The notes below the pieces were generated by a model that was not told where the DNA came from, ran no database searches, and worked only from the letters and a program-made list of their open reading frames with translations. DNA of 64,000 bases from an uncultured Candidatus Puniceispirillum sp. (GTDB taxonomy: Bacteria; Pseudomonadota; Alphaproteobacteria; Puniceispirillales; Puniceispirillaceae), in NCBI GenBank assembly GCA_905182545.1, contig CAJJBY010000010.1, forward strand, positions 1-64,000, given 5' to 3'. Positions within the stretch are counted from its first letter, which is position 1. Every line of letters begins with the position of its first letter. A program made the translations under genes and the position numbers. Of the stretch, positions 6,897 through 55,731 are shown piece after piece.

Positions 6897-7184
6897 GTCT
6901 TTAGCCTTTGGCCGTTCACCAGCTTACCTTGCGGCTTTGGCAGTGAACGCCGATCAACGTGGCGCAACATAGGTCAAGCCCGAAGCGCTTGCAAGTGAAT
7001 ATTCGCCCGACTTTACCGACTTTTTTATTGATCATTCCAATTGGTCTTTTTACATAGACTAAATCGGCTATAAAAAAATACCGGATCAAGCATATGCTTT
7101 GGCTTTGCAGCTTTTGCGGCAAACCGATATGATGGCGCCCACAAAAGGCCCCTGGGGCTTTGTCTTTGGTCAAAGGTGGGAATC

Positions 7185-7664
7185 ATGACAGAACAGCGTA
7201 TCAAATCATTTCCGGTTTCATGGGAAGAATTACATCGCACCTCAAAGGCTTTGGCCTGGCGGCTGCTGGAGCTTGGCCCGTTTGACGGACTGATTGCGGT
7301 CACGCGTGGCGGGCTTGTGCCAGCGGCGATTGTTGCCCGTGAATTGGAAATCCGGCTGATCGATACTGCCTGCATTTCATCCTATGCCGGCAATGAGCGT
7401 GGCAAGCTTGATGTTCTGAAACCATCGCTCTTGGCCGGCGATGGCAGCGGCTGGTTGATTGTTGATGATCTTGTCGATACGGGCGAAACCGCCAAGGCGC
7501 TAAAGCTGATGTTGCCAAAGGCGCATCTAGCAACCGTATATGCAAAACCGGCTGGGCGGCCACTTGTCGATACATTTGTAACCGAAGTCTCGCAAGATAC
7601 TTGGATTTTCTTTCCGTGGGATCTTGAACCGCAGCCATCAACCCCAATCATTGGCCAACGCTAG
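7185..7664 (+). CDS. gpt: Xanthine phosphoribosyltransferase
   Basis: This enzyme joins xanthine or guanine to PRPP in purine salvage. The 159-aa product shows the PRPP-binding signature IVDDLVDTG (about residues 92-100), an early TRGGLVPA loop (40-47) and a C-terminal WIFFPW purine-site segment, all typical of the XGPRT family. ATG 7185 follows AAGGTGGG at good spacing; a GTG three codons earlier is the alternative. It stands alone after the tRNA and is not visibly part of the downstream rpmH operon. The first 288 bp between tRNA and this gene hold nothing I can recognise. Confidence 0.88.
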
Positions 7665-7792
7665 ACTAAAATTCATGCGAAGCATGTAAAAAACCAGCGA
7701 TATAGCTTGTAGAGGTAATTATACGCGGCAATGTTTGCTGCTATTTTGTAAAATAGCGCGCCAAAATCATTACTGGCCCAATGCAAATATCA

Positions 7793-7821
7793 TTGACAGA
7801 TGCAGCCATGCGGCCTATACC
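7793..7821 (+). promoter_or_regulatory. Sigma-70-type promoter for rpmH
   Basis: TTGACA (7793-7798) and TATACC (7816-7821) are separated by exactly 17 bp, about 48 bp before the rpmH start. It is the clearest promoter in the window and should drive rpmH-rnpA-yidD-yidC. No DnaA-box cluster was seen in the 200 bp before rpmH. Confidence 0.7.
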
Positions 7822-7868
7822 CCGCACTCAGTAATTTTCTATATTCACTTTCATAAAGGAGCGTTCAA

Positions 7869-8003
7869 ATGAAACGCACCTATCAGCCTAGCGTATTGGT
7901 TCGCAAGCGCCGTCACGGTTTTCGTTCACGCATGGCCACTGTTGGTGGTCGTCGGGTCATTCAGGCTCGTCGTGCAAAGGGTCGTGCGCGCCTCTCAGCG
8001 TAA
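7869..8003 (+). CDS. rpmH: 50S ribosomal protein L34
   Basis: The 44-aa, highly basic product begins MKRTYQPS and contains the L34 core [13 protein letters not shown] and [13 protein letters not shown]. It is a structural protein of the large ribosomal subunit. The ATG follows the ribosome site AAAGGAG. It is first in the conserved rpmH-rnpA-yidD-yidC order, 36 bp before rnpA, downstream of a consensus promoter. Confidence 0.97.
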
Positions 8004-8039
8004 CTATATCCACAAGGATACCTGTGTTTGGTGTCTGAC

Positions 8040-8464
8040 ATGAAAACCATACCGTCGCGCGCCGGATTCCTTGCGGCGCGGTCCAAGGGCGAAAAAGCCC
8101 TTGCCAGAGGCCTTGTGATCCAAGCCGTCACCCACGATTTGGATGTTTGGCGGATCGGGCTAACCGCTACCAAAAAAATTGGCAATGCCGTCACCCGTAA
8201 TCGGGCTCGACGGCGTATGCGCGCTTTGGCGCGTGATCATCTGTCACCATTAGCAAAAAATGGCATTGATTATGTGTTGATTGCCCGTCATGACACCGCA
8301 ACGGCGAATTGGCAGGACATGATTAATGGGTTGCAAAAAGCAATCCGCTATCTTCACCGCACCATCGCCACTGGCACAAATCCAGGGGCAAGTCAAATGC
8401 TAAGCCAAACGCCAAGCCCGACCCCAAGCCAATGGCGGACAGACAATCACAGGATAAATCATGA
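8040..8464 (+). CDS. rnpA: Ribonuclease P protein component (apparent frameshift near the C-terminus)
   Basis: RnpA binds the catalytic RNase P RNA for tRNA 5' maturation. The signature GNAVTRNRARRRMR (about residues 48-61) and the N-terminal SRAGFLAA are clear. Starts at TTG 8028 or GTG 8031 are also possible, the latter nearer to the AAGGA at 8014. As written the frame stays open to 8729, running over almost all of yidD. Moving to the -1 frame after about 8380 gives a Lys/Pro-rich tail ending in a TGA that overlaps the yidD ATG (ATGA), as expected for a coupled operon, giving about 141 aa. I therefore infer a missing base and place the end at 8464. Confidence 0.8.
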
Positions 8465-8766
8465 ACCGGTTTGGCGCTTTTACGCAAAAGGTGGCGGCCG
8501 GTTTCCTTCTTGGGCTGATTGCAATTTATCGTTTATTTATCTCGCCACTTTTGGGAGCAAATTGTCGGCATTTGCCAACATGCTCACAATATGCGAAAGA
8601 TGCGGTAATCGCACACGGACCCTTGCATGGATCTTACTATGCGCTAAAACGTATTTTGCGCTGTCACCCTTGGGCCGAACCAAAGGTCGATCCGGTGCCA
8701 CCATTCTTGAACAGGCAGAAAGCCATTAAAAATATTAATGCCAAAAACCAAAGGTTAGGTGAATGA
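8461..8766 (+). CDS. yidD: Membrane protein insertion efficiency factor YidD
   Basis: The 101-aa product shows the YidD core: IAIYRLFISPLLGANCRHLP followed by TCSQYA, then HGPLHGSYYALKRILRCHPW. It is an inner-membrane-associated protein that helps YidC-dependent insertion of membrane proteins. It overlaps rnpA upstream (ATGA after the inferred frame correction) and yidC downstream by 4 bp, so the three are translationally coupled. Confidence 0.93.
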   Translation: MNRFGAFTQKVAAGFLLGLIAIYRLFISPLLGANCRHLPTCSQYAKDAVIAHGPLHGSYYALKRILRCHPWAEPKVDPVPPFLNRQKAIKNINAKNQRLGE

Positions 8767-44358: not shown

Positions 44359-45837
44359 TTATTTGACCGTTACTTTATGCCAACGGATAGAATGGTTTTC
44401 TACCGCATCAATGCCGTTAACATTGGCACCCATCACATAAAGCTTGGACACATGATAAGGAATCAATGTACCAGCGGTTTGGTAAAGATGCTCTTGTGCC
44501 TGAACGTAAAGCGCCCGGCGTTTGTCAAAATTCAACTCACGGCGTGCCTTGCCTAGAAGGGCATCAAAATCAGCATCTTTATAATAGGATTCGTTCCATT
44601 TTGCTGTTGAAAGATAGATTTCATGCAAGGCCGAGTCAGCTGGACGCTCGTTCCAGCGTGTTGCCGAAACTGGCTTTTGCATCCATGTATCTTTCCAATA
44701 TCCATCGGATGGTACCTGTTTGATATTCACCCGGATACCCGCCTTTGCGGCCTGCTGCTGATAGGCCTCGGCAAGGGTTGGCCAAGTTGGTTCCAATGTT
44801 GCCACATAGACATCCACATCAATACCATTGGCAAAACCCGCTTCGCTTAGAAGTTTTTTTGCACCGGCAATATCTTGTGGACATTTAATATCAGCACGAT
44901 ACTGGTCATCAGGCTTTACCGGCGTGTCACAGGCAATCGTGGCCGATCCGCCCATGATAAGCTTGACCAGTTCACCGCGGTCTGCCGCCATACGAACCGC
45001 TTGGCGAACACGAATGTCGCTAAAAGGAGCAACATCAGTCCGGAACACCAGACCGCGCCAATTGCCGGTCGGCACTTCCATCATTTTGAATTTATTGTTG
45101 CTAGCAAACATAGGCTTTTGCTGATTGGTCACCTTATCCTCAAAGTGAATCTGTCCGCCAAGCAAAGCTTGCAAGCGTGCCTGACCATCACCAATGCCGA
45201 TGATTTCCATCTTTGCAACGCCCGGCGCACCTTCCCAATAATCCATATTGGCTTCGAGCTTGGTAGTGCCAGCAGCGTCAAATTTTACCAGCTTGAACGG
45301 GCCAGTGCCAATGCCTGATGCCGCGATGCTGTCGCCTGATCCCTCTGGGATAATCCGCAAACGATAATCCATCAGCTGAAGTGGTAAATCGGCAAATGGT
45401 GTCGACAGTTTAAAGGTTATTGTTGATTTGTCCGGTGCTTCCATCTTTTCAATCATCTTGATGGCCGATCGCGCTGGCGATTTATTTTCCGGATCCAGGA
45501 CACGGTTGAATGTGTAGATAACATCGCCAGAATCAAAGGCGCTGCCATCGTGAAATTTAACGCCATCGCGCAACTTCAAAGTCCATTCGGTGGCTTGTGA
45601 ATTTGCTGACCATGAAACGGCAAGATCCGGGCTTGGTGACCCCTTCATATCCGGCCGGATAAGGCGGCTCATCAGCTTTTCCGTAATCTGCATGACACGG
45701 CCGCGTGAAGCCGGATCAAGGCTGGATTTGTCGCCAAACCCATATTCATGGGCCTGTATGAAAGTGCCGCTTGGCGCGGCGATTGCACCGCCACTAGCGA
45801 ACACAATCAGTGTTGCTGCAATAAGGTATTTTTTCAT
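44359..45837 (-). CDS. Family 5 solute-binding protein of the dipeptide-type ABC transporter
   Basis: The 492-aa product has a signal peptide (1-20, cleavage after GGAIA) and the SBP_bac_5 fold: LAVSWSANSQATEWTLKLRD followed by GVKFHDGSAF, VIYTFNRVLDP, and IRVRQAVRMAADRGELVK. It binds the substrate (peptide, or another small organic compound) in the periplasm. The ATG follows AGGAGG inside the duplicated leader. A terminator follows it before the permeases. Confidence 0.92.
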   Translation of the reverse strand: MKKYLIAATLIVFASGGAIAAPSGTFIQAHEYGFGDKSSLDPASRGRVMQITEKLMSRLIRPDMKGSPSPDLAVSWSANSQATEWTLKLRDGVKFHDGSAFDSGDVIYTFNRVLDPENKSPARSAIKMIEKMEAPDKSTITFKLSTPFADLPLQLMDYRLRIIPEGSGDSIAASGIGTGPFKLVKFDAAGTTKLEANMDYWEGAPGVAKMEIIGIGDGQARLQALLGGQIHFEDKVTNQQKPMFASNNKFKMMEVPTGNWRGLVFRTDVAPFSDIRVRQAVRMAADRGELVKLIMGGSATIACDTPVKPDDQYRADIKCPQDIAGAKKLLSEAGFANGIDVDVYVATLEPTWPTLAEAYQQQAAKAGIRVNIKQVPSDGYWKDTWMQKPVSATRWNERPADSALHEIYLSTAKWNESYYKDADFDALLGKARRELNFDKRRALYVQAQEHLYQTAGTLIPYHVSKLYVMGANVNGIDAVENHSIRWHKVTVK

Positions 45838-46147: not shown

Positions 46148-47419
46148 TTATCTGGTTAGCAAAGACGGGAGCCAGGTGGAGGCTTCGGGAATCAGGATCA
46201 TCAAAATCCCATAAAGAATGCCAACGCCGACAAAAAGTGGCACCTCGCGGAATGCCTTGGCCGGGTTTTCCTGAATGACGCTGGCGCTTGTGTAAATGCC
46301 GACACAGACCGGCGGGGTGATCATGCCGATCCCGGCAAAGGCGACGAACACCACATATAGGTGCAGCAGGCTCTGGTTGAAGGACAGGGTGATCGCGGCA
46401 AAGATCGGCACGGTGAGATAAAAAACTGGAACGATCTCGACAAAGGTTCCGAGCAGCAGGCAAATGATCGCCAGCGCCACCCAGAACAGCGCAAACGTCG
46501 CGCCCATATCGGTGAAATAACTGACGATCTGTTGCGGGATCTGGCTGTAGGTCAGGACCACGCTGAGGAAGGTGGCGGTCGCAATGATGGCGAAAATGAT
46601 CGCTGTGATCGTCGCCGTTTCTTTGAGCGCAAGGCACAGCGATGCGAAGGTCAGTTCCCGGTAGATGAAAAATCCCATCACGATCGCCCAAACGCCAGCA
46701 ACTGCTGCTGACTCAGATGGGGTCAGCAGGCCAGCATAAATGCCGCCAAGAATGATAATTGGGGTGAATAATCCGGGCAGCGCGCCAAGAAAGCTGCGCC
46801 AGCGTTCCGCCGCCGAGGCCGGTTCCGGGTTCCGGATGTTGCGGCATTTGATCAGGACAACAATGACCATGAAGGCGAGAAGGATCAGCCCCGGGATGAC
46901 CCCGGCAGCAAAGGTCTGCGAGACCGGAACATTGGTAAGGGCGCTGAACAATATCGCGGCATTTGAGGGTGGGATCAGAGCTTCGAGAAGCGCGGCCGAG
47001 GCCGCCAGAACAATGACAAAGGGTCTGGGATAACCCTGATCGAGCATCTTTGGCATCATGATCGTGCCTACAGCCGTGATAGCGGCCAGAATGGAGCCAC
47101 AGAAAGCGGCAAAAAACCCCATGGCGATAACCATGGCAATGCCAAGACCGCCCGGCCAATGGCCGACAAGCGCCGTGGCAAAATCCACCAGGCGTTTGGC
47201 AGCGCCGCCACGGAGCATCACCATCCCGGCGAAAATGAACAAAGGCACGGCAACCAGAATGTGCTTTGTCATCGCGCCGAAGGAGACCTGAATCAAGGTT
47301 GACCAGGGCAGGCCAAGACCGAGAATGGCGGCGGCCGAGCTGCCAATACCGAATACCAAAAAGATCGGCACCGACATTAGCAACAGCAGGAGCGAAGAGA
47401 AGATTGCAAGCGCGTACAT
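46148..47419 (-). CDS. dctM: TRAP transporter large permease (DctM-like)
   Basis: The 423-aa, twelve-helix-type membrane protein shows AVPLFIFAGMVMLRGGAAKR, GFFAAFCGSILAAITAVGTI, LIPPSNAAILFSALTNVPVS and ITPPVCVGIYTSASV, all typical of DctM. It uses an ion gradient to import substrate delivered by DctP. It lies 3 bp after dctQ. Two spot-counted 60-nt lines (46261, 46441) are each 60% GC, above neighbouring transporter genes. Confidence 0.94.
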   Translation of the reverse strand: MYALAIFSSLLLLLMSVPIFLVFGIGSSAAAILGLGLPWSTLIQVSFGAMTKHILVAVPLFIFAGMVMLRGGAAKRLVDFATALVGHWPGGLGIAMVIAMGFFAAFCGSILAAITAVGTIMMPKMLDQGYPRPFVIVLAASAALLEALIPPSNAAILFSALTNVPVSQTFAAGVIPGLILLAFMVIVVLIKCRNIRNPEPASAAERWRSFLGALPGLFTPIIILGGIYAGLLTPSESAAVAGVWAIVMGFFIYRELTFASLCLALKETATITAIIFAIIATATFLSVVLTYSQIPQQIVSYFTDMGATFALFWVALAIICLLLGTFVEIVPVFYLTVPIFAAITLSFNQSLLHLYVVFVAFAGIGMITPPVCVGIYTSASVIQENPAKAFREVPLFVGVGILYGILMILIPEASTWLPSLLTR

Positions 47420-47422
47420 GGG

Positions 47423-47980
47423 TTAAATCTTCTCCAGGCTTTTGGTTGGGCTAGTCTGGGACGGATCATTGGGCGTTGGGCCACCCAGCGCCACGAGTTC
47501 AGCCAGAATCAGCTCCAGCGCGAATAAGATCATTATCCCAAAGCCGCAAGGAAAGGCCAGATACACCCACCATACCGGGATTTCGATTTCCAGCTCCATG
47601 ACCTGTCCCAGCATAAAATAGAGGCTGGTGGCCTCAACCCCTGCGACAAGAAAGACGATGGATGACAGCAGGGCGATCACCGCAATAATCAGTCTGAGGA
47701 CCGATAATTGCCGTGGGGCCAGAAGATTGTTCAGGATATCCACCTTGATATGGGCGCCGGATTTCAACAACGGCCCCAGAAGTGGGAAGACAAGCCAGCT
47801 AGTGAGGATTGGTGGCAGTTCGATGAACCAATCATAGCCAGTGCCGGAGGCATATCTGATGAGCGCGCTCAAGAACAGCGCAAGCACCATGTTGGCAACA
47901 ATGAAAATCGCCAGCAGATAAATCGCTTTCTCAAGCCATTCATTCAGCTTGGACAAAGACGCAAGCGCGGCTTTCAACAC
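47423..47980 (-). CDS. dctQ: TRAP transporter small permease (DctQ-like)
   Basis: The 185-aa product has four helices in the DctQ pattern, with YDWFIELPPILTSWLVFPLL and GAHIKVDILNNLL as the conserved core. It partners DctM in the membrane. It lies 36 bp downstream of dctP and 3 bp upstream of dctM. Confidence 0.92.
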   Translation of the reverse strand: MLKAALASLSKLNEWLEKAIYLLAIFIVANMVLALFLSALIRYASGTGYDWFIELPPILTSWLVFPLLGPLLKSGAHIKVDILNNLLAPRQLSVLRLIIAVIALLSSIVFLVAGVEATSLYFMLGQVMELEIEIPVWWVYLAFPCGFGIMILFALELILAELVALGGPTPNDPSQTSPTKSLEKI

Positions 47981-48016: not shown

Positions 48017-49045
48017 CTAGTTGGCAGCATATTGCTGGGCCTTGACCAGCGTATCCTCATCGAACATGTCTGCCATTGCCGGCATCACCTCATCCTGCAT
48101 CAATTTATTGAACTTTGCTTTCTCGGCACCGCTGAGTTCGGTGACAACGCCGCCACGCTCAATAAATTTCTTCAAGGTATCCTCACCCGCGCCCAGAATG
48201 TTATCGGTTGCGATCTGGCCGACTTCAGCGCCAACAGTCAAAACCAGCTCCCGCAAATCATCAGGCAGGCTGCTCATCCAATCGCGGTTGGCCATGATGT
48301 AAGCATCGGCAAAATACTGATAGGGCTTTTGACCATAGGCCAGATATTCCCACCAGCTGTAGGCTTCAATTGATCCCGGAGGGCTGTTGATCGTGTCGAT
48401 CATGCCGGTCTGAAGCGAAGTGTAGACCTCACCAGTTGGCAGTGAGACAGCGTTGGCACCAAGCGCCTTCCACATCGGAAGCTCACTCTTCAACAGGCGG
48501 CGGGCTTTCAGCCCCTTCATCACGTCAATGCCGGTCAATTCACGGGCGCTGCTGAAGGTCATCACCGGACCAACAGGGTTATACATGATCAGCTGCGATT
48601 TGCTCTTTCTGGTGATATCCCCCCAGATTTCCTGGCCCTTGTCCGAATTCAGGAAAAATCCACGCTGCTGTTCATAGGAGGCAAACAGACCGGGATAGGA
48701 GGCAACATTGAAATTCTTGTTGATCGGCGGAAAGCTGACAACGCCGACAACGCCGCCAAGTTCAACAGCGCCGGAGGTGATGGCGCCAAGAACCTCTCTG
48801 ATGCCGAAAAGCTGTTTGGAGGGGTAATATTCGATCTTTAGCCGCCCACCGGACCTTTTTGTCACCTCATCGGCAAACATCTGTGAATGGATCGAGCTTT
48901 GATGGGTTGGACTCCAATGTCCAGACATGCGCGCGACAATCTGGTCAGCAACGGCCTGAAATGAAGTGAGCGATATTGTCAGGGCAATGCCCAATGCAAC
49001 CGGTTTGGTGGCGCCACGCAAGGTGGCCGAAAGAAGCCTTCTCAT
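48017..49045 (-). CDS. dctP: TRAP transporter solute-binding protein (DctP-like)
   Basis: The 342-aa product has an N-terminal signal peptide (about 1-33) and the DctP fold: FADEVTKRSGGRLKIEYYPS, GAVELGGVVGVVSFPP, ARRLLKSELPMWKALGANAV and LQTGMIDTINSPPGSIEAY (ligand-contact helix). TRAP systems commonly take up organic acids; the substrate here is not evident. The ATG follows AGGAGG in leader copy B. Confidence 0.93.
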   Translation of the reverse strand: MRRLLSATLRGATKPVALGIALTISLTSFQAVADQIVARMSGHWSPTHQSSIHSQMFADEVTKRSGGRLKIEYYPSKQLFGIREVLGAITSGAVELGGVVGVVSFPPINKNFNVASYPGLFASYEQQRGFFLNSDKGQEIWGDITRKSKSQLIMYNPVGPVMTFSSARELTGIDVMKGLKARRLLKSELPMWKALGANAVSLPTGEVYTSLQTGMIDTINSPPGSIEAYSWWEYLAYGQKPYQYFADAYIMANRDWMSSLPDDLRELVLTVGAEVGQIATDNILGAGEDTLKKFIERGGVVTELSGAEKAKFNKLMQDEVMPAMADMFDEDTLVKAQQYAAN

Positions 49046-49272: not shown

Positions 49273-49378
49273 TCAGACTAATTTGCTTGCAAGATGAAAC
49301 AGTAACCAAAGCGAAGGGCCCGACGTGACGCCAAAGCTGCTGGATGACGAAGACCATAACCAGATTTTAGGGAATAAT

Positions 49379-50137
49379 ATGCGTGGGCTGGTTCAGATAT
49401 TTGCTGTTGGCGGCGGAGGCTTTACCCATTCGCAAGATGGTGGCGGCAGTGATGGGCTGCTTGAAGATCGTCTGCTGGCGTTGGTTGGGCCGGTTGCCAA
49501 ACTGAAAATCGGCTATATCGGCCACGCCAATAATGATCGGGCGGATCGTCTCAAGGCTTTTTATGCGCGGTTTGAGGGCTGTGCGCGAACAACGCATTTG
49601 CCGATAACGGCAGATGCGGCGATGGCACAGGATTTTTTGCAGGATCTGGATATTCTTTATGTTGGCGGGGGAACAACAACAGCAATGCTGTCACATTGGC
49701 GCAAATCAGGCATTGCCGATTTATTGGTGGCAGCGATACGCCGGGGGCTTGTCGCATCCGGGGTTAGTGCCGGAGCGATTTGCTGGTTTTCCGACTTGCT
49801 GTTGAAAACCGGAGATGATTGTTTTGAACCCCAGTTTGAACAGCATAAGGGGCTTGGGCTTATTGCCGGAAGCGCCTGCCCGCATTTCAGTAGCGAGCCA
49901 GCCCGAAAACAGGCCTTTGAAGCGGCGATTGCCAGTCAGAAATTACAATCAGGAATCGCCATTGATGATGGTGTTGGCGTGCATATTATCAATGGTGTTG
50001 TTGCCGAGATTGTGTGCGCCCGCAGCAGCGGGTCGGCTTATCTGCTAGCACCAGATGGTGACATGAATACCCATCAGGCGCTCACTGACGGTCATCGGCT
50101 TGGAATGGGGTCAACAAACGGGGATGCAAGCGTATGA
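49379..50137 (+). CDS. Peptidase S51-family protein (dipeptidase E / cyanophycinase-like)
   Basis: The 252-aa product has FAVGGGGFTHSQDGG at the start, ILYVGGGTTTAMLSHWR and the nucleophile elbow GVSAGAICWF (Ser), then IDDGVGVHIING. This is the class I glutamine amidotransferase-like fold of PepE. Such enzymes cut Asp-X dipeptides or cyanophycin-type peptides. ATG 49379 follows AGGGA; GTG 49325, after GAAGGG, would add 18 residues. It is divergent from dctP across leader copy B. A peptidase beside a peptide-type ABC transporter fits peptide use (inference). Confidence 0.8.
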   Translation: MRGLVQIFAVGGGGFTHSQDGGGSDGLLEDRLLALVGPVAKLKIGYIGHANNDRADRLKAFYARFEGCARTTHLPITADAAMAQDFLQDLDILYVGGGTTTAMLSHWRKSGIADLLVAAIRRGLVASGVSAGAICWFSDLLLKTGDDCFEPQFEQHKGLGLIAGSACPHFSSEPARKQAFEAAIASQKLQSGIAIDDGVGVHIINGVVAEIVCARSSGSAYLLAPDGDMNTHQALTDGHRLGMGSTNGDASV

Positions 50138-50270
50138 GACGGGGTGAAGGGTCGGGCCGATCAAGAATGGGGCGCAACAGGCGGGACAAAAACGCCGCTG
50201 TTAACCCTGTCGAAAGCGAGATGATATTGCGCAAGGCACTTCCTATTTTGCTGCCGCCAAGAGATCAAAC

Positions 50271-51185
50271 CTAAGGCGCAGATTTGATAATCGAATCATT
50301 TTTGAAAGCTGTGATTATGATGTCTGCCAATTGTCTGGTTTCCTGCGTCATCATGTCAATGCCACGGGTAATGATCGCAATGTGATATTTCATATTCTGC
50401 ACAATCGGCCGGATCATAACGCCACCTGACGCAACCGACATGCGCGCCGAAAACGGATCAACAATGGCCGGAACACCAGCCTCACGAACCAGTGCTGCAC
50501 CAGCCAGAACATTGGCAACACTATAGCGCGCATTGCTCTGAAATTTTTCAGCGAGGCTGGCGTCCATGCCTTGCATTTCAAGCGGGTAGACACTGCCAAA
50601 TGTCACAAATTCTACCTGGCCGGCAACATCCCTTAAATCGATGGGGTCTTCTGATTTTGCCAGAATATGATCCTCAGGGATTAAGGCGACATAATTCACC
50701 ATGGTCTGGTAAAGGATATCCACACCAACATAAGGCGGCGACCGCGAGACAATGCCAAGGTCAAATTGCTGCAGCCGGATTGCGTCGACAATGGCCGGTG
50801 TATTATGCGTATATATGATCGAATGGGTCAAATCATCTTGCCGGCGCATCTGGCCAAGAACCCGCGGCAAAAGCGATGTCGAAAATGTTGGAATGACACC
50901 AATGGAAATCTTGCCAACCGCCTTTTTGCGAATTGAGGCTGCCAGATCATCAAGCCGCTCAATATTGAGGAACGTGCTTTCAACCGCCAAATGAAAACGT
51001 CGTGCCTCAACAGTCGCGATAATGCCGCGCCCCTGACGAACAAAAAGGGCAAAACCAAGATTTAATTCAAGGTCGCGAATAAGCCGCGTGACACTTGGCT
51101 GTGAGACCAGCATTTGCTTTGCTGCACCAGTAATCGAACCAGTTTGCATAACAGCGTTAAAGGCCTTGAGTTGGCGAAAATTCAT
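50271..51185 (-). CDS. LysR-family transcriptional regulator
   Basis: The 304-aa product has the N-terminal winged helix (FRQLKAFNAVMQTGSITGAA, KQMLVSQPSVTRLIRDLE) and the periplasmic-binding-like effector domain from about residue 90 (KISIGVIPTFSTSLLPRVLG). It is divergent from the hydroxyacid oxidase gene with only 64 bp between starts, the classic LysR arrangement, so it probably controls the 51.2-55.7 kb operon and perhaps the nearby transporters. The effector is unknown. Confidence 0.93.
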   Translation of the reverse strand: MNFRQLKAFNAVMQTGSITGAAKQMLVSQPSVTRLIRDLELNLGFALFVRQGRGIIATVEARRFHLAVESTFLNIERLDDLAASIRKKAVGKISIGVIPTFSTSLLPRVLGQMRRQDDLTHSIIYTHNTPAIVDAIRLQQFDLGIVSRSPPYVGVDILYQTMVNYVALIPEDHILAKSEDPIDLRDVAGQVEFVTFGSVYPLEMQGMDASLAEKFQSNARYSVANVLAGAALVREAGVPAIVDPFSARMSVASGGVMIRPIVQNMKYHIAIITRGIDMMTQETRQLADIIITAFKNDSIIKSAP

Positions 51186-51249
51186 TTTATCCCCTTTTGC
51201 TTAATCATACCTTTTTTCTATCAATTCATCCAATAATTATATTTGCCTA

Positions 51250-52479
51250 ATGATTAAGCCGACTGATAGCGTTTGTGCATGGCATCGACTGGGGTGGGTA
51301 TTGGGCAAACAACTATTTTCTGTAGCTGAGGCACGGCAAGTCGCAAAACGGCGGCTGCCGCGCATGATGTTTGATTTTATCGATGGCGCATCGGGTGATG
51401 AATCACTGCGTGATCTCAATTCAGCAATGATTGACCATATCAGATTGATGCCCCGCGTTCTGATTGATATTTCTGAGCGCGCAATGTCGGCATCTATTCT
51501 GGGACAGGAAACAGGTCTTCCTTTCGGGATCGCGCCAATGGGTATGTGCGCGCTGTCATGGCCGGGGGCTGATTTCAGTCTGGCGCGTGAAGCGGCAAAG
51601 CGGCGCATTCCTTTATGTGTGTCAACAGCATCGTCAATGGCGCTTGAACAGGTAATCGAGCTAGCCGAGGGTCATGCTTGGTTTCAGCTTTATGCTGATC
51701 AGTCAAACGGGTTTGTTGATGAATTGATCGACCGCGCCATTGCTGCCGATTATAAAGTGCTGATCCTGACCGTTGATGTGCCCATCCCTTCAGTGCGGAC
51801 ACGCGACAAACGCAACGGGTTTTCCTTTCCAATGAACTGGGGCGCGTCACAGATATGGGACTTTGCCAGCCACCCTAGATGGTCGCTTGAAACCGCGCTC
51901 CACGCGATCCGGCATCAAATGCCACAGCCAATGAACTATGCCACATCAAGCCAGAAGACAACCTTTGTGCGGAATGCTAGCCGAGCCGGTGCCGACTGGA
52001 ATTTTCTTGCCACTTTGCGTGACCGCTGGCCGGGTAAGCTGGTGGTCAAAGGGGTGCAATCGGTTGAGGATGCATTTCGCATAAAGACAATCGGGGCTGA
52101 TGCCATTTATGTGTCGAACCATGGTGGCCGCCAGCTTAATGCCGCGCCGGTGGCAATTGACTCGCTTGTCGAAATCCGCAATGCGGTTGGTGGCACGTTT
52201 CCGTTGATTTTTGATGGCGGTATCCGCAATGGCGAACATGTCATCAAAGCGCTAGCTGCTGGGGCAGATTTTGTCATGCTGGGTCGCAGTGTGATGTATG
52301 GCCTTGGTGCAGGCGGTGCGGCTGGTCTTGGGCAAATTCTGGATTTGATCGAAGCTGAAGCAAGTTCGGTGATGGGTTTGCTTGGATGCCGAAATATTGC
52401 CGAACTGGGCGCTGCAAATTTAGCTGAAAATTATGAAACATTGATGTTGCGAACGATGCTGGAAAGGGCTGCCGAATGA
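51250..52479 (+). CDS. FMN-dependent alpha-hydroxyacid oxidase/dehydrogenase
   Basis: The 409-aa product of the LldD/glycolate oxidase family oxidises an L-2-hydroxyacid to the 2-oxoacid. Visible motifs are FDFIDGASGDE, GIAPMGMCALSWPGAD, WFQLYADQ, DVPIPSVRTRDKRNGF, the active-site SNHGGRQL (His 291) and IFDGGIRNGEHVIKALAAGA plus DFVMLGR. A TTG start at 51301 (after GGTGG) would remove 17 poorly conserved residues. It is first in a four-gene operon and overlaps the ThDP gene by 4 bp. The exact hydroxyacid is not determinable. Confidence 0.9.
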   Translation: MIKPTDSVCAWHRLGWVLGKQLFSVAEARQVAKRRLPRMMFDFIDGASGDESLRDLNSAMIDHIRLMPRVLIDISERAMSASILGQETGLPFGIAPMGMCALSWPGADFSLAREAAKRRIPLCVSTASSMALEQVIELAEGHAWFQLYADQSNGFVDELIDRAIAADYKVLILTVDVPIPSVRTRDKRNGFSFPMNWGASQIWDFASHPRWSLETALHAIRHQMPQPMNYATSSQKTTFVRNASRAGADWNFLATLRDRWPGKLVVKGVQSVEDAFRIKTIGADAIYVSNHGGRQLNAAPVAIDSLVEIRNAVGGTFPLIFDGGIRNGEHVIKALAAGADFVMLGRSVMYGLGAGGAAGLGQILDLIEAEASSVMGLLGCRNIAELGAANLAENYETLMLRTMLERAAE

Positions 52480-54218
52480 CGCCACCCAAAAAGATAAGGG
52501 GCGGCGCATTGCTTGCGCGTGCCTTGCAGGAAAAGGGCGTTGAACATGTGTTCACCCTGTCAGGCGGGTTTTGCAATCCTGCGCTTGAAGGATTTATGGA
52601 ATGCCAGATGAAGGTGATCAACTGCCCGCATGAGCAGGTGGCTGGACATTTCGCCGACGGCCATACGCGGATCACGCGCAAACCTGCGGTTTGTCTTGTC
52701 GGGCCAGAGGGCTTTGCGAATGCCGTGCCAGCAATGATGGAGGCTTGGGGCGAACGTTCACCGGTGATTTTTGTCACTGGATCAAGCACGTTGAAACGTC
52801 AAGGTGCAGGCGGATTCAAGGAAATTGACGATGTTGCAATCGCCGCGCCACTAACGAAATATAGCGCCACCATAACCGATGGCGAACGCATCAATGAATT
52901 TGTTGACCGCGCCGTCAAAATTGCCACCAACGGCTATCCCGGGGCGGTTCATCTTAGCCTTCCTGTTGATATTATGTTTTCCCATTTTGCCGAAGATGCT
53001 GGCCGTGATGAGCGGCCATTTGATCTGAGCATACAACTGCCAGCGCGCGCATGGCCAGAACCAGCACGCCTTCAGCAATTGCTGCAAAAGCTCAATGCTT
53101 CCAAACGGCCGGTTCTGATTGGCGGACATGGTGTTTGGTGGGCCAAGGCCGAGGCAAAGCTTGAAGAGGCTGGCCGCCTGCTTGGCATTCCGGTGTTTAA
53201 CATCCCCTATCACCAAAAACTGCTAGGCGAAGAATGCGAAGCCTATATGGGGCTTGCCGATATCCATCAATATCATCCTTCCGCCGATGCGTTTCGTGAC
53301 GCTGATCTGGTGCTGATGGTTGGTGGCCGACTTGATAATCAGATGAATTTTGGCAATCCACCATTATTTCCGTCAAGCGCCGAACTGGTATGTGTCAACG
53401 GATCGCACGAAGAAATAGAGTTTAACCGCGCGGCTGATTTTGCCTTGTTATGTGATCCGGCTGCGTTTCTGGAAACCTTGGTTGCGCATCGGCAGAATCC
53501 CGATTTTCGCCTGCCCCGCGATTGGTATGATTTGAACCGGCAATGGCGCGCCGAATGGGTTGATAAGATGCTTGCCGATCTTGACCATGAAACGGCGCAG
53601 CCAGCATTTGAGGGTCGGATTCATCCCTTGCAATTAGCCCTTGATGTGCAGGGCGCGATGGGTGATGGCGACTGGCTGGTGATTGATGGTGGCAACACGC
53701 ATTTCTGGTCGGAAATTGCAGTAAATATTGCCGGCTTTCAGGGGAAAAAACTTGGTGGGATTTTGCATCCGGGCACCTTTAGCCTTTTGGGGGTTGGCGT
53801 GTCGTTTGCGGTATCGGCAAAAAATGTTGATCCCAACCGCAATGTTGTGCTGATCAGCGGCGATGGTGCCTTTCTGTCAGGGGGGTTGTCGATTGAGGCT
53901 GCCTTTCAAGAAAATCGTCCCATCGTAGTCGTGATTGATAATAATGGCGGGCTTGACTGTATTTCCCAGCAGCAGGAAAGGCTATTTGCCAGCGGCACGC
54001 ATTATGCCACCGATTTCCGTGATATTCCGTTTCACGCGATGTTTGAGGGGCTTGGCGGGCATGGTGAATTGGTCACAAGGCGCGAAGACATCATTCCGGC
54101 GGTGCAACGTGCCATGGCTAGTGGCAAGACGGCTTGTGTGAATGTCAAAGTGAAGGGGGTTATCAGCCCGATTGTTTTGGCAACCACATCAAAACGCGAC
54201 AAGGCGTCAATTGAATAA
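52476..54218 (+). CDS. Thiamine-diphosphate-dependent enzyme (acetolactate synthase-like fold)
   Basis: The 580-aa product has the three-domain fold of ThDP decarboxylases/lyases: GALLARALQEKGVEHVFTLS with catalytic Glu 53 (PHEQVAGHFADGHTRI), a middle domain (RPVLIGGHG) and the ThDP/metal motif GDGAFLSGG...DNNGG (about 462-490). Retention of the Glu argues against a glyoxylate carboligase. Coupled to an oxidase making 2-oxoacids, it may decarboxylate or cleave that product (inference). It could equally be an oxalyl-CoA decarboxylase- or lyase-like enzyme; specificity is not shown. Confidence 0.85.
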   Translation: MTPPKKIRGGALLARALQEKGVEHVFTLSGGFCNPALEGFMECQMKVINCPHEQVAGHFADGHTRITRKPAVCLVGPEGFANAVPAMMEAWGERSPVIFVTGSSTLKRQGAGGFKEIDDVAIAAPLTKYSATITDGERINEFVDRAVKIATNGYPGAVHLSLPVDIMFSHFAEDAGRDERPFDLSIQLPARAWPEPARLQQLLQKLNASKRPVLIGGHGVWWAKAEAKLEEAGRLLGIPVFNIPYHQKLLGEECEAYMGLADIHQYHPSADAFRDADLVLMVGGRLDNQMNFGNPPLFPSSAELVCVNGSHEEIEFNRAADFALLCDPAAFLETLVAHRQNPDFRLPRDWYDLNRQWRAEWVDKMLADLDHETAQPAFEGRIHPLQLALDVQGAMGDGDWLVIDGGNTHFWSEIAVNIAGFQGKKLGGILHPGTFSLLGVGVSFAVSAKNVDPNRNVVLISGDGAFLSGGLSIEAAFQENRPIVVVIDNNGGLDCISQQQERLFASGTHYATDFRDIPFHAMFEGLGGHGELVTRREDIIPAVQRAMASGKTACVNVKVKGVISPIVLATTSKRDKASIE

Positions 54219-54238
54219 CCGTGAACAGGGGGCAAATT

Positions 54239-54586
54239 ATGGCCGTTTTATCTTCTCACTTTTTGAACGCAATCGATGGAACCCATGCTGGCGCAGTGGC
54301 GGTTAGGCTGATGTCAATTGGCGATGATGGCCAGCGCGAAACGTTATTCACCGCCGAAAGTGACGCGCATGGACGATTTTCCCTTGGCTTTGATGCTGTC
54401 AGTGGGCAATCATATGAAATGGTGATCGCCAGCGGTGCCTATTTCAAGACAGCGGATTTACCAAGGTCAGGGGCACAGATTCTCGACGAAATCGTGGTGC
54501 GCTTTACCACGCCTGATCCGGACAGCAGCTATCATATTCCCGTCATCATGGCACCCAACAGCTATTCATGCTGGTGGTCGGCTTAA
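54239..54586 (+). CDS. Transthyretin/HIUase-like protein with altered C-terminal signature
   Basis: The 115-aa product aligns over the full length of 5-hydroxyisourate hydrolases: LSSHFLNAIDGTHA (His 7), HGRFSLGF (Arg 46), the YHIPVIMAPNSYS strand (His 99). The enzyme signature YRGS at the very C-terminus is replaced: it ends SYS-CWWSA rather than SYS-TYRGS. The core His-Arg-His set is kept. No urate or allantoin gene is nearby, so hydrolysis of a different cyclic compound is possible. ATG 54239 follows AGGGGGC. Third in the operon. Confidence 0.8.
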   Translation: MAVLSSHFLNAIDGTHAGAVAVRLMSIGDDGQRETLFTAESDAHGRFSLGFDAVSGQSYEMVIASGAYFKTADLPRSGAQILDEIVVRFTTPDPDSSYHIPVIMAPNSYSCWWSA

Positions 54587-54615
54587 TGGTCATAATATAT
54601 AGTGAGGCGTAACTG

Positions 54616-55731
54616 ATGAGCGAATCAGGGCTAAACATGTCGAGCCGTATCCGGCGCACCCCTTATACTGACAAGGTTGAACAGCATGGTGTTCGCGGGT
54701 TCAGTGTGGTCAATCATATGCTGTTGCCAAAGGCCTTTGCAGCTTCGGTTGAAGAGGATTACTGGCATCTTCGCCAAGATGTTCAAATCTGGGATGTTGC
54801 CTGCCAAAGGCAGGTTGAAATTTCGGGGCCTGATGCGACACATTTGATTCAGTTAATGACGCCGCGCGACCTTCGCCAAGCGCGTGTTGGGCAAGGGCTT
54901 TATGTCCCGCTGATCGACGAGCATGCTGGCATCGTGAATGATCCGGTGCTGTTGAAACTGGCTGAAGACCGTTTTTGGCTGTCGATTGCCGACTCGGATG
55001 TTCTGCTGTGGGCAAAGGGGCTGGCGGTGGGCGCAGGTCTTGATGTGATTGTCAATGAAGCTGATGTCGCGCCACTTGCCGTTCAAGGGCCAAAGGCCGA
55101 CCAGTTAATGGCTAGTCTGGTTGGGGATCAGATACAGCAATTGCCCTATTTTGGGTTTGCCATGTTTGACCTTCTTGGCACAAGCCAACTGATTGCGCGA
55201 TCAGGTTACAGCAAGCAGGGCGGTTTTGAAATTTACCTTGCTGGCGGCGAAATGGGGTCTGACCTTTGGGATCTTATCTGGGATGCTGGTCAGCCCTATA
55301 ATATTAAGCCCGGCTGTCCAAATCTGATCGAGCGTATCGAAGGCGGGCTGATGTCTTACGGCAATGAATTCACCCTTGCCAATAATCCACTGGAATGCGG
55401 CTTTGACCGTTTGTGCCATCTTGGTGACGAAATCAATTATATTGGCCGTGCCGCGCTTCGCCAGATTGCCGCTGACGGGCCGGTTCAAGCCATTCGCGGA
55501 ATCCGCTTTGGCGGTGATAAGGCACCGCCATGTGGCAAACCATTTCCAGTAACCGATCTGCATGGCGTGCCGGTTGGGCAGATTACATCTGGAATCTATT
55601 CCCCGCGTTTGAACTGCAATATTGGCATATCGATGATCAATAAAACCCATTGGGACTATGACACCGCCCTGCTGGTTCATACGCCCGATGGCTTGGTGCG
55701 CGATGCCGTGGTTTCCAAATTGCCTTTTTGA
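54616..55731 (+). CDS. dmdA: DmdA-family THF-dependent demethylase (DMSP demethylase or close relative)
   Basis: The 371-aa GcvT-fold product shares many blocks with SAR11-type DmdA as I recall it: NHMLLPKAF, VQIWDVACQRQVEISG, LMTPRDL, SIADSDV, ARSGYSKQGGFEIYL, PGCPNLIERIEGGLMSYGNE, NPLECGFDR. Plain glycine-cleavage T proteins do not share these. DmdA moves a methyl of dimethylsulfoniopropionate to tetrahydrofolate, leaving methylmercaptopropionate. The motif RSGYSKQGG has Tyr where I recall Trp, so a different methylated substrate is possible. ATG follows GAGG. Last gene of the operon. Confidence 0.75.
   Translation: MSESGLNMSSRIRRTPYTDKVEQHGVRGFSVVNHMLLPKAFAASVEEDYWHLRQDVQIWDVACQRQVEISGPDATHLIQLMTPRDLRQARVGQGLYVPLIDEHAGIVNDPVLLKLAEDRFWLSIADSDVLLWAKGLAVGAGLDVIVNEADVAPLAVQGPKADQLMASLVGDQIQQLPYFGFAMFDLLGTSQLIARSGYSKQGGFEIYLAGGEMGSDLWDLIWDAGQPYNIKPGCPNLIERIEGGLMSYGNEFTLANNPLECGFDRLCHLGDEINYIGRAALRQIAADGPVQAIRGIRFGGDKAPPCGKPFPVTDLHGVPVGQITSGIYSPRLNCNIGISMINKTHWDYDTALLVHTPDGLVRDAVVSKLPF

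Follow-up and report, generated by a model that had tools for sequence, protein, structure and literature searches.

A conserved gene set for hydroxyacid oxidase, ThDP, HIUase-like and DmdA-like proteins in SAR116 and other bacteria

Genes and candidate control elements at the locus

The window, a 64,000-nucleotide stretch of DNA from a SAR116 genome, contains four plus-strand genes that, judged from their sequences, are genuine and form one predicted operon. They encode an FMN-dependent 2-hydroxyacid oxidase/dehydrogenase (51298..52479; PF01070, FMN_dh, 1.7e-119), a ThDP-dependent enzyme of the acetolactate synthase/2-hydroxyacyl-CoA lyase branch (52476..54218; PF02776/00205/02775), an HIUase/transthyretin-like protein with W-W-S in place of Y-R-G-S (54239..54586; PF00576, 6.1e-15), and a DmdA-family (GcvT-like) THF-dependent demethylase of a separate operon-linked clade (54616..55731; NF009133; GCV_T, 1.8e-39). 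The last 4 bases of the oxidase gene (52476-52479) are also the first 4 of the ThDP gene. All four ORFs lie where the original prediction placed them, and with its starts the ThDP and HIUase-like genes are separated by 2 bases and the HIUase-like and DmdA-like genes by 29.

Two of those starts probably lie upstream of the true ones. The oxidase frame is open from ATG 51250, which lies only 4 bases downstream of a conserved 27-base element, and the entire open frame of the oxidase in genome G408 is 393 residues long, its alignment beginning at residue 2 of a query started at 51298; the true start is therefore likely to be GTG 51298. The HIUase-like ORF can be extended to GTG 54221, but most relatives start at MAxLSSH or nearby, which corresponds to ATG 54239 in the window, the likely true start.

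A divergent gene for a LysR-type regulator (50271..51185, minus strand; PF00126, PF03466) lies upstream. The same cluster is found in 26 of the 80 loci that carry the ThDP gene, a number that, like all neighbour counts given here, is a lower bound, because greedy ORF calling overlooks genes where GC content is high and many contigs are cut short. The 27-base element (51219..51245), unique in the window, lies between lysR and the oxidase gene. With up to 5 mismatches it occurs in 13/13 loci that keep lysR (the window and L009-L022), and it is absent from L017 and L023, both of which lack lysR; L013 is cut. The element is likely a LysR or promoter site, and this candidate site together with the divergent gene makes the LysR control proposed earlier likely.

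Further upstream are genes for an S51-family peptidase/amidase-like protein (49325..50137, plus strand; PF03575, 3.5e-30) and a remnant of mttB (50134..50274, plus strand). S51 genes are present in 47/80 loci; in 24 of 45 they lie at most 60 bp from the gene for the oxidase. The mttB remnant, which carries an in-frame internal deletion, was recognized by similarity to MttB of locus L009: it is 79% identical to the first 28 residues of that protein, and 17 of the last 19 residues match. Genes for MttB occur upstream in 13/80 loci; MttB normally requires a corrinoid partner. A second GcvT-type gene is located upstream in 22/80 loci, and genome G188 combines a GcvT-type gene with the only homocysteine S-methyltransferase found. 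Genes for MTHFR-like proteins (the match is below the Pfam cut-off) and formyltransferase/ACT (PurU-like) proteins follow the DmdA-like gene in 4/80 loci. These recurring extra demethylases and C1-folate genes fit the earlier suggestion of a methylated substrate.

An importer was also expected nearby, and two recur. Minus-strand genes encode a TRAP solute-binding protein (DctP, 48017..49045; PF03480), small permease (DctQ, 47423..47980; PF04290) and large permease (DctM, 46148..47419; PF06808), next to an SBP5-type ABC substrate-binding protein (44359..45837, minus strand; PF00496) whose cluster is found in 41/80 loci. Orthologous TRAP genes are present in 16/80 loci, a figure that excludes a 31% copy in L075 from the 17 loci of the large-permease cluster; DctM is 74-78% identical in 12 loci from SAR11, Pelagibius, Rhizobiaceae and Rhodobacterales. 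Solved structures gave no hint of a substrate: for the transporter proteins the matches are remote and of several kinds (sialic acid, isethionate, opine, peptide, nickel), and for the S51 protein they are weak.

Linkage of the genes across genomes

The four genes behave as a linked unit in distant relatives too. Among the 80 ThDP loci, an HIUase-like gene is downstream of the ThDP gene in 79, an FMN oxidase gene upstream in 72 and a DmdA-like gene downstream in 73. Scattering in relatives, set beforehand as refutation, was mostly not seen: all four genes stand together in 69 loci, and the gene set and its conservation are established at the level of sequence. The HIUase-DmdA gap has a median of 21 bases (range -13 to 487, 73 loci).

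A set of 385 Alphaproteobacteria genomes contains six with the ThDP gene, and the WWS-type HIUase-like gene is found in these six and no others; the two are adjacent in 6/6, with a DmdA copy directly downstream in five and an oxidase directly upstream in five. The linkage between the ThDP and HIUase-like genes is not due to chance (Fisher p 2.3e-13, uncorrected for kinship, with four of the six genomes in the window's own family). A phylum-wide search yielded one further genome (2/398, the window's own included), and the ThDP protein has no match among plasmids.

Hosts of the ThDP loci are SAR116, SAR11, Rhodobacterales, Hyphomicrobiales, Kiloniellales, Gammaproteobacteria and one member of the Chloroflexota, and operon carriers include Planktotalea frisia, Nioella sediminis and Kiloniella spongiae. 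Since the record titles include Lake Pavin, ponds, Methylocystis and Chloroflexota (an Anaerolineales bin), the marine setting originally envisaged for the substrate is too narrow.

Neither the oxidase nor the DmdA-like step is universal, as the FMN oxidase is missing at 8/80 loci and a DmdA-like gene is absent nearby in 7/80. One of the latter is cut by the contig end; downstream DNA is present in the other six (L057, L059, L060, L064, L072 and L082). L064 and L072 contain only an asparaginase-like gene followed by the ThDP and HIUase-like genes. Downstream of the ThDP-HIUase-like pair, L060 has genes for a GlcD-like FAD oxidase and a member of the TauD family, and no FMN oxidase was found there; the same Pelagibius genome has a complete operon at L054, so L060 may represent a different route.

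Divergence of the encoded proteins from known families

Most flavin active-site residues of the oxidase are conserved. We take the active-site residues of this family, with their numbering and roles, to be Tyr24, Tyr129, Asp157, Arg164, Lys230, His254 and Arg257, and these are kept in nearly all rows, Tyr24 excepted. Y148, D176, K267, H291, R294 and R326 are conserved wherever a row has a residue at the position, and R183 in 70/71. The Tyr24 equivalent is Phe43 in the window and Phe in 67/69 rows, with Tyr in two operon oxidases; this Phe was dropped as an operon-specific mark, because four outside homologues (L161-L164) share it.

Other outside oxidases, 49-50% identical in two genomes and 43% in a third, reside in operons with TRAP, SDR and ComDE genes (L158-L160), a gene content that rests on profiles for eight L158 genes and two L160 genes and otherwise on reading by eye. 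ComDE is present in L158 and ComE in L160. These oxidases occupy the slot that one study annotates as slcD in R. pomeroyi (PMC4334477). The oxidase of operon-bearing genome G188 is 51% identical to that of the window, so identity alone cannot separate sulfolactate-type from operon oxidases, and support in the oxidase trees is weak, with outgroup rows L161, L163 and L164 in misread frames. Ldh_2 family genes are near the operon in 9/80 loci.

By sequence, the ThDP protein is a highly conserved family of its own (mean column identity 81% over 12 members). The window protein matches TPP_enzyme_N/M/C (3.4e-32, 6.8e-28 and 6.5e-25) and scores under the cut-off of all 25 NCBIfam models shown. Its active-site residues are retained: the catalytic Glu of CPHEQ and the GDG...NN motif are conserved in at least 95% of 81 rows. 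The best solved-structure match (197 bits) is in the branch of 2-hydroxyacyl-CoA lyase, oxalyl-CoA decarboxylase and acetolactate synthase. Acetolactate synthesis and oxalyl-CoA decarboxylation were ruled out as functions, with scores far under the curated cut-offs. The structure model was poor (pLDDT 65.7) and was left unused.

A C-terminal YRGS is a mark of the 5-hydroxyisourate hydrolase family. The HIUase-like protein is predicted to have the transthyretin/HIUase fold (pLDDT 92.6, with HIUases the top PDB matches) and retains the conserved His, Arg and His positions, but scores 55.7 bits on the HIUase model TIGR02962, below the cut-off of 87.45. None of 79 rows has the RGS ending (the L024 row is frameshifted before its end); 62 end in WW[SGP] and 76 contain a GTHA-like motif, and YSxW is also present. 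An ordinary HIUase with a YRGS ending lies beside UraD elsewhere in the window's genome, and uric-acid catabolism was rejected as a role for the operon protein on that account. Two Trp residues might have formed an aromatic cage around an onium group, an idea weakened by the variability of the second Trp. Searches against plasmids gave 19 matches at 29-40% identity, uraH wherever a gene name is shown.

The DmdA-like protein scores 570.2 bits on NF009133, the curated DmdA model (cut-off 410), and 371 bits against the DmdA structure 3tfh. In a midpoint-rooted tree the operon proteins (30 sampled rows, all in one clade; the paralogue row L130, in a wrong frame, was excluded) form a separate clade on the DmdA side (support 99/98), and of the three closest DmdA homologues in the window's genome only the operon copy is on that side. 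Tyr32 is replaced by Val in 73/74 operon rows, a set that counts a distant homologue from L071 but not the truncated L010, and is Tyr in 30/31 comparison rows, the remaining row being misread; Gln for Glu63 likewise distinguishes the operon rows. Glu204 and Tyr206 of the folate site are retained in the window protein. W171, described as the key DMSP residue in one account of DmdA (PMC7487153), was equated by offset count with residue 197, which is Tyr in the window; as six roseobacter-type rows also have Tyr there, this change was dropped as a sign of new specificity. The DmdA-family assignment made originally is correct. By sequence, however, the HIUase-like and DmdA-like proteins count as diverged paralogues of separate origin, and the reactions of their families are not simply transferable to them.

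Candidate pathway and comparison with known systems

A 2-hydroxyacid theme is suggested by the active-site residues of the oxidase, the GlcD-like oxidase of L060, the Ldh_2 genes and the outside oxidases in ComDE operons. A methyl theme is suggested by the DmdA family, MttB, the GcvT-type genes, the homocysteine S-methyltransferase and the MTHFR-like and PurU-like genes. We infer every reaction, the order of the steps and the substrate of the following pathway. With about an even chance of being correct, and setting aside the DMSP precursor discussed below, the operon is a catabolic module for a 2-hydroxycarboxylate that bears a methylated onium group (dimethylsulfonio or trimethylammonio). 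The compound would enter through the SBP5-type ABC or the TRAP importer, with amide hydrolysis by the S51-type protein in some lineages. The FMN enzyme would form a 2-oxoacid from the 2-hydroxyacid by oxidation, in the manner of SlcD acting on sulfolactate, and the ThDP enzyme would decarboxylate or cleave that oxoacid, as ComDE does with sulfopyruvate. The WWS-type HIUase-like protein might then hydrolyse or otherwise process the ThDP product, and the DmdA paralogue could transfer a methyl group to THF, either alone or with MttB, homocysteine S-methyltransferase or a second GcvT-type enzyme removing another methyl. Folate C1 enzymes would oxidize the methyl-THF, and LysR presumably senses some compound of the pathway.

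One alternative, which we consider very unlikely, is that the substrate is 4-dimethylsulfonio-2-hydroxybutyrate (DMSHB), a DMSP precursor that the oxidase, ThDP enzyme and HIUase-like protein convert by oxidative decarboxylation to DMSP, with the DmdA-like protein a true DMSP demethylase. The high score on the curated model agrees with this, as does the tree, in which the operon clade joins roseobacter-type DmdA (93/81) and leaves the SAR11 clade of 3tfh outside, and the window genome's two next DmdA homologues fall outside the group so formed. However, Val32 is near-invariant in the operon rows, where comparison rows have Tyr, and at least 11 of 27 operon genomes retain a separate DmdA of SAR11 type (five) or roseobacter type (six). 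Moreover, the MttB genes and freshwater hosts would be left unexplained, and DsyD, the sole domain named for the step, is ureidoglycolate-lyase-like and belongs to another family.

It is improbable, too, that the operon acts on a hydantoin-, imidazole- or purine-like compound, either an N-methylated heterocycle or the product of opening its ring, and that the HIUase-like protein keeps ring-opening amide hydrolysis. That protein does have the HIUase fold with His, Arg and His in place, amide-hydrolase-like genes recur (S51 proteins and the asparaginases of L064 and L072), and an Asp/Glu/hydantoin racemase-family gene lies downstream in L059. Against this stand the absence of the RGS ending from all 79 rows and the profiled neighbours, which cover part of the neighbour families and include no purine, allantoin or hydantoinase genes except the OHCU decarboxylase beside the ordinary HIUase of the window's genome. 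Alternatively, and quite improbably, the oxidase, ThDP enzyme and HIUase-like protein serve one pathway, for sulfolactate-like or plain hydroxyacids, in which case the DmdA-like gene is a hitch-hiker engaged in ordinary DMSP demethylation. The six loci that pair the ThDP and HIUase-like genes without it would be explained, as would the close relatives of the oxidase in sulfolactate operons, but its frequency among the ThDP loci, its single clade in the 30 sampled rows and the gap before it argue against this reading.

The module is carried by some genomes of SAR11, SAR116 and roseobacters, groups of abundant marine heterotrophs, and suggests that dissolved organic matter contains a methylated compound whose breakdown was not found described in the literature searched. 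Among the papers listed in those searches, no title or opening of an abstract describes the four-gene set, and a pathway for a methylated hydroxy-acid looks undescribed. Because the operon paralogue passes the curated DMSP-demethylase model, surveys of DMSP-demethylation genes may be counting a different reaction, and in the HIUase-like family a purine enzyme would have been recruited into another pathway. It is possible but unlikely that an undescribed onium 2-hydroxyacid pathway is widespread; in the boldest form of this reading, the oxidase, ThDP enzyme and WWS-type HIUase-like protein would constitute an unrecognized oxidative decarboxylase that converts DMSHB or its ammonium analogue to DMSP or a betaine for the operon DmdA, and part of the surveyed dmdA of SAR116, SAR11 and roseobacters would belong here. 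With concrete enzymes, conserved partners and named carrier strains, the module is testable.

The ThDP enzyme shares the catalytic Glu and ThDP motif of its branch, but is a separate family far below every curated cut-off shown. The HIUase-like protein shares its fold and the conserved His, Arg and His with UraH/PucM, but carries the GTHA-like motif and YSxW, lacks the YRGS ending and is partnered with the ThDP enzyme instead of UraD. The DmdA-like protein shares its fold family, folate-site Glu and Tyr (in the window protein) and curated score with the DMSP demethylases of Pelagibacter ubique (3tfh) and roseobacters and neighbours them in the tree, yet forms its own clade with Val32 and Gln63, and its gene resides with the other three, whereas at L153, read by eye, the gene after dmdA is CoA-ligase-like. 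Also among the closest systems is the hps/slc/ComDE route for DHPS and sulfolactate (SlcD, then sulfopyruvate decarboxylase), which has in common with the operon a TRAP importer, an FMN oxidase of the same family and adjoining ThDP-dependent decarboxylation of a 2-oxoacid. No ComDE or hps genes are among the profiled operon neighbours, and the sulfolactate pathway itself was dropped for lack of ComDE there. Sulfolactate-type oxidases (L158-L160) have Tyr at the Tyr24 position, where operon oxidases mostly have Phe, and in place of ComDE the operon has a single-chain acetolactate-synthase-like ThDP protein, together with the HIUase-like and DmdA-like genes.

Layout and conservation of the operon

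In the window, which comes from a 2.0-Mb genome, consecutive plus-strand genes (51298-55731) encode an FMN 2-hydroxyacid oxidase, a ThDP enzyme, an HIUase/transthyretin-like protein and a DmdA-family protein, with a LysR gene divergent from them (50271-51185, minus strand). The oxidase and ThDP genes overlap by four bases. A conserved element, the length of a relative's open frame and the starts of homologues place the probable start of the oxidase at 51298, not 51250, and that of the HIUase-like protein at 54239, not 54221. The four genes very likely form one functional unit.

A scan with the ThDP protein yielded 148 relatives, and the best 80 were used for neighbourhood counts. The HIUase-like gene is 3' of the ThDP gene in 79 of the 80 loci, and the exception (L071) stops 764 bases past the ThDP gene. 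The oxidase gene is 5' of the ThDP gene in 72 loci, and a DmdA-like gene is at most 1.2 kb downstream in 73. The original prediction held that these genes belong together, and their co-occurrence across relatives largely bears this out, with the full set in 69 of the 80 loci. Among the 80, no oxidase gene was found in L060, L063, L064, L071, L072, L073, L076 and L087, and no DmdA-like gene in L057, L059, L060, L064, L071 (cut), L072 and L082. Judged by record titles, the hosts are SAR116, SAR11, Rhodobacterales, Hyphomicrobiales including Methylocystis, Kiloniellales, Gammaproteobacteria and one Anaerolineales bin, whose locus lacks the DmdA-like gene. Three cultured SAR11 Ia genomes have four aminomethyltransferases apiece according to PMC3160333, whose passages on them mention none in an operon of this kind; therefore, the operon may belong to other SAR11 lineages.

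An independent, evenly drawn sample of 385 Alphaproteobacteria genomes contains the ThDP gene in six. With an HIUase-like family profile, scores are 131 to 161 bits in exactly these six, where the match adjoins the ThDP gene, and at most 85.3 bits for all other matches listed; at E 1e-12 the profile matches in 97 genomes, including the six. The association of the two genes (Fisher p 2.3e-13) is uncorrected for kinship, and four of the six genomes belong to the window's own family. DmdA is directly 3' in five of the six, as is the oxidase directly 5'; one genome (G393) has neither within the distance limits applied. DmdA-family matches occur in 48 genomes (43 without the ThDP gene) and oxidase matches in 12 (seven without it).

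Genes and elements near the operon

Neighbours among the 80 loci include genes for SBP5-type ABC transport (41 loci), S51-family peptidase/amidase-like proteins (47), LysR (26) and TRAP binding proteins (16). A 27-base element, which occurs once in the window, lies in the lysR-oxidase gap of all 13 lysR-keeping loci among the window and L009-L023; it is absent from L017 and L023, which lack lysR, and L013 is cut.

An mttB-family gene is present in 13 of the 80 loci, and in L009-L012, L014 and L020-L022 it is flanked by the S51 gene and lysR. An in-frame internal deletion has reduced it to a 46-residue remnant in the window (50134-50274); L009, whose ThDP protein is 99% identical to the window's, retains 517 residues, and the next MttB homologue in the window's genome has only 42% identity. 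GcvT-type genes lie upstream on the same strand in 22 SAR11 loci, and one locus (L026) has the run GcvT-type, S51, oxidase, ThDP, HIUase-like, DmdA, thiolase and aminotransferase. In genome G188, SBP5 is followed by homocysteine S-methyltransferase and GcvT-type genes, then the oxidase. Four Hyphomicrobiales loci (one profiled, three assigned by clustering) have MTHFR-like (below the Pfam cut-off) and formyltransferase/ACT (PurU-like) genes after DmdA. Mainly because extra demethylase and C1 genes recur near the operon, we infer that its substrate is methylated, perhaps a quaternary ammonium compound.

Some loci have other gene contents. In Pelagibius (L060, 6908-14481), a second ThDP-HIUase-like copy has a TctA-type transporter gene upstream and GlcD-like FAD oxidase and TauD-family genes right after the HIUase-like gene, replacing the FMN oxidase and DmdA. 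The FAD oxidase would fit a 2-hydroxyacid step performed by another enzyme, and L060 may serve another substrate, because the same strain has the full operon in L054. An asparaginase-family gene, called from a profile search of the same stretch in G393 (L154), is immediately 5' of the ThDP-HIUase-like pair in L064 and L072, and no oxidase or DmdA was found near the pair there. L082 (read by eye) has two phytanoyl-CoA-dioxygenase-like genes divergent from the oxidase gene (7099-8738), close to TctA-like and aspartate-dehydrogenase-like genes.

DmdA-like and HIUase-like proteins

The DmdA-like protein is a DmdA family member in a clade of its own. In a midpoint-rooted tree, all 30 sampled operon rows form one clade (support 99/98) that groups with a roseobacter-type clade (93/81), and SAR11 DmdA (3tfh, from Pelagibacter ubique, and five others) falls outside this group. 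At position 32, where 30 of 31 comparison rows have Tyr (the remaining row is misread), 73 of 74 operon rows have Val; at position 63, 72 of the 74 operon rows have Gln, and the 31 comparison rows include 27 with Glu and 3 with Gln. DmdA with a neighbouring CoA ligase is a familiar setting for DMSP demethylation genes. Genome G238, without a ThDP gene, has a 57% identical DmdA that keeps Tyr32 and precedes a CoA-ligase-like gene (read by eye). At E 1e-40, DmdA-family genes number two to four in 23 of 27 genomes, counted via their loci, and one in four. Two further family genes of the window's genome, G000:C9:142928-144019 (41%) and G000:C1:178290-179360 (39%), fall outside the clade of roseobacter-type and SAR11 DmdA. 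All 74 operon rows have Tyr at residue 197, which by offset count we read as the DMSP-contact Trp of PMC7487153; it was rejected as a discriminator because six roseobacter-type rows share Tyr.

The HIUase-like protein differs from ordinary HIUases. It scores below the cut-off of the curated HIUase model, and its C-terminus reads YSxW-x-S in place of YRGS. We take a YRGS ending and the equivalents of His13, Arg52 and His105 to be marks of HIUase; these three residues are invariant in 14 aligned members. Among 79 rows, none ends in RGS, 62 have WW[SGP] and 76 have a GTHA-like motif. The predicted structure (pLDDT 92.6) retains the HIUase fold, with HIUases as top PDB matches. A canonical YRGS HIUase is encoded elsewhere in the genome, adjoining an OHCU decarboxylase gene.

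Possible substrates and the sulfolactate analogy

Our confidence is evenly balanced that the operon serves catabolism of a methylated 2-hydroxyacid, the case for 4-dimethylsulfonio-2-hydroxybutyrate (DMSHB), a DMSP precursor, being graded separately. The substrate may be a sulfonium acid such as DMSHB or an ammonium acid. The DMSHB decarboxylase is mostly unidentified, according to PMC11306096. No description of the four-gene set was found in the openly licensed papers searched.

Catalytic residues are conserved in the oxidase apart from the equivalent of Tyr24, which is Phe in 67 of 69. Phe is a subgroup trait and was rejected as a mark of the operon, because it is shared by four other outside homologues (L161-L164), and sulfolactate-type L158-L160 have Tyr. 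Identity to the window's oxidase is 51% in operon-bearing G188, 50% in G181 and 49% in G279, the last two having no ThDP gene; such values cannot on their own tell the operon oxidase from outside oxidases. In G181, G279 and G337 (43%), the oxidase's operon also holds TRAP, SDR and sulfopyruvate decarboxylase genes.

In the DHPS/sulfolactate-type operons L158-L160, sulfopyruvate decarboxylase genes are directly 5' of an SlcD-type oxidase, as determined by profile searches for eight L158 and two L160 genes, others being read by eye. This arrangement is helpful for naming FMN oxidases. In R. pomeroyi, slcD (membrane-bound sulfolactate dehydrogenase) is annotated after hpsNOPQ (PMC4334477). Since SlcD-type oxidases occur in sulfopyruvate decarboxylase operons, the steps of the operon's oxidase and ThDP enzyme may be likened, as a working analogy, to the route from sulfolactate via sulfopyruvate to sulfoacetaldehyde.
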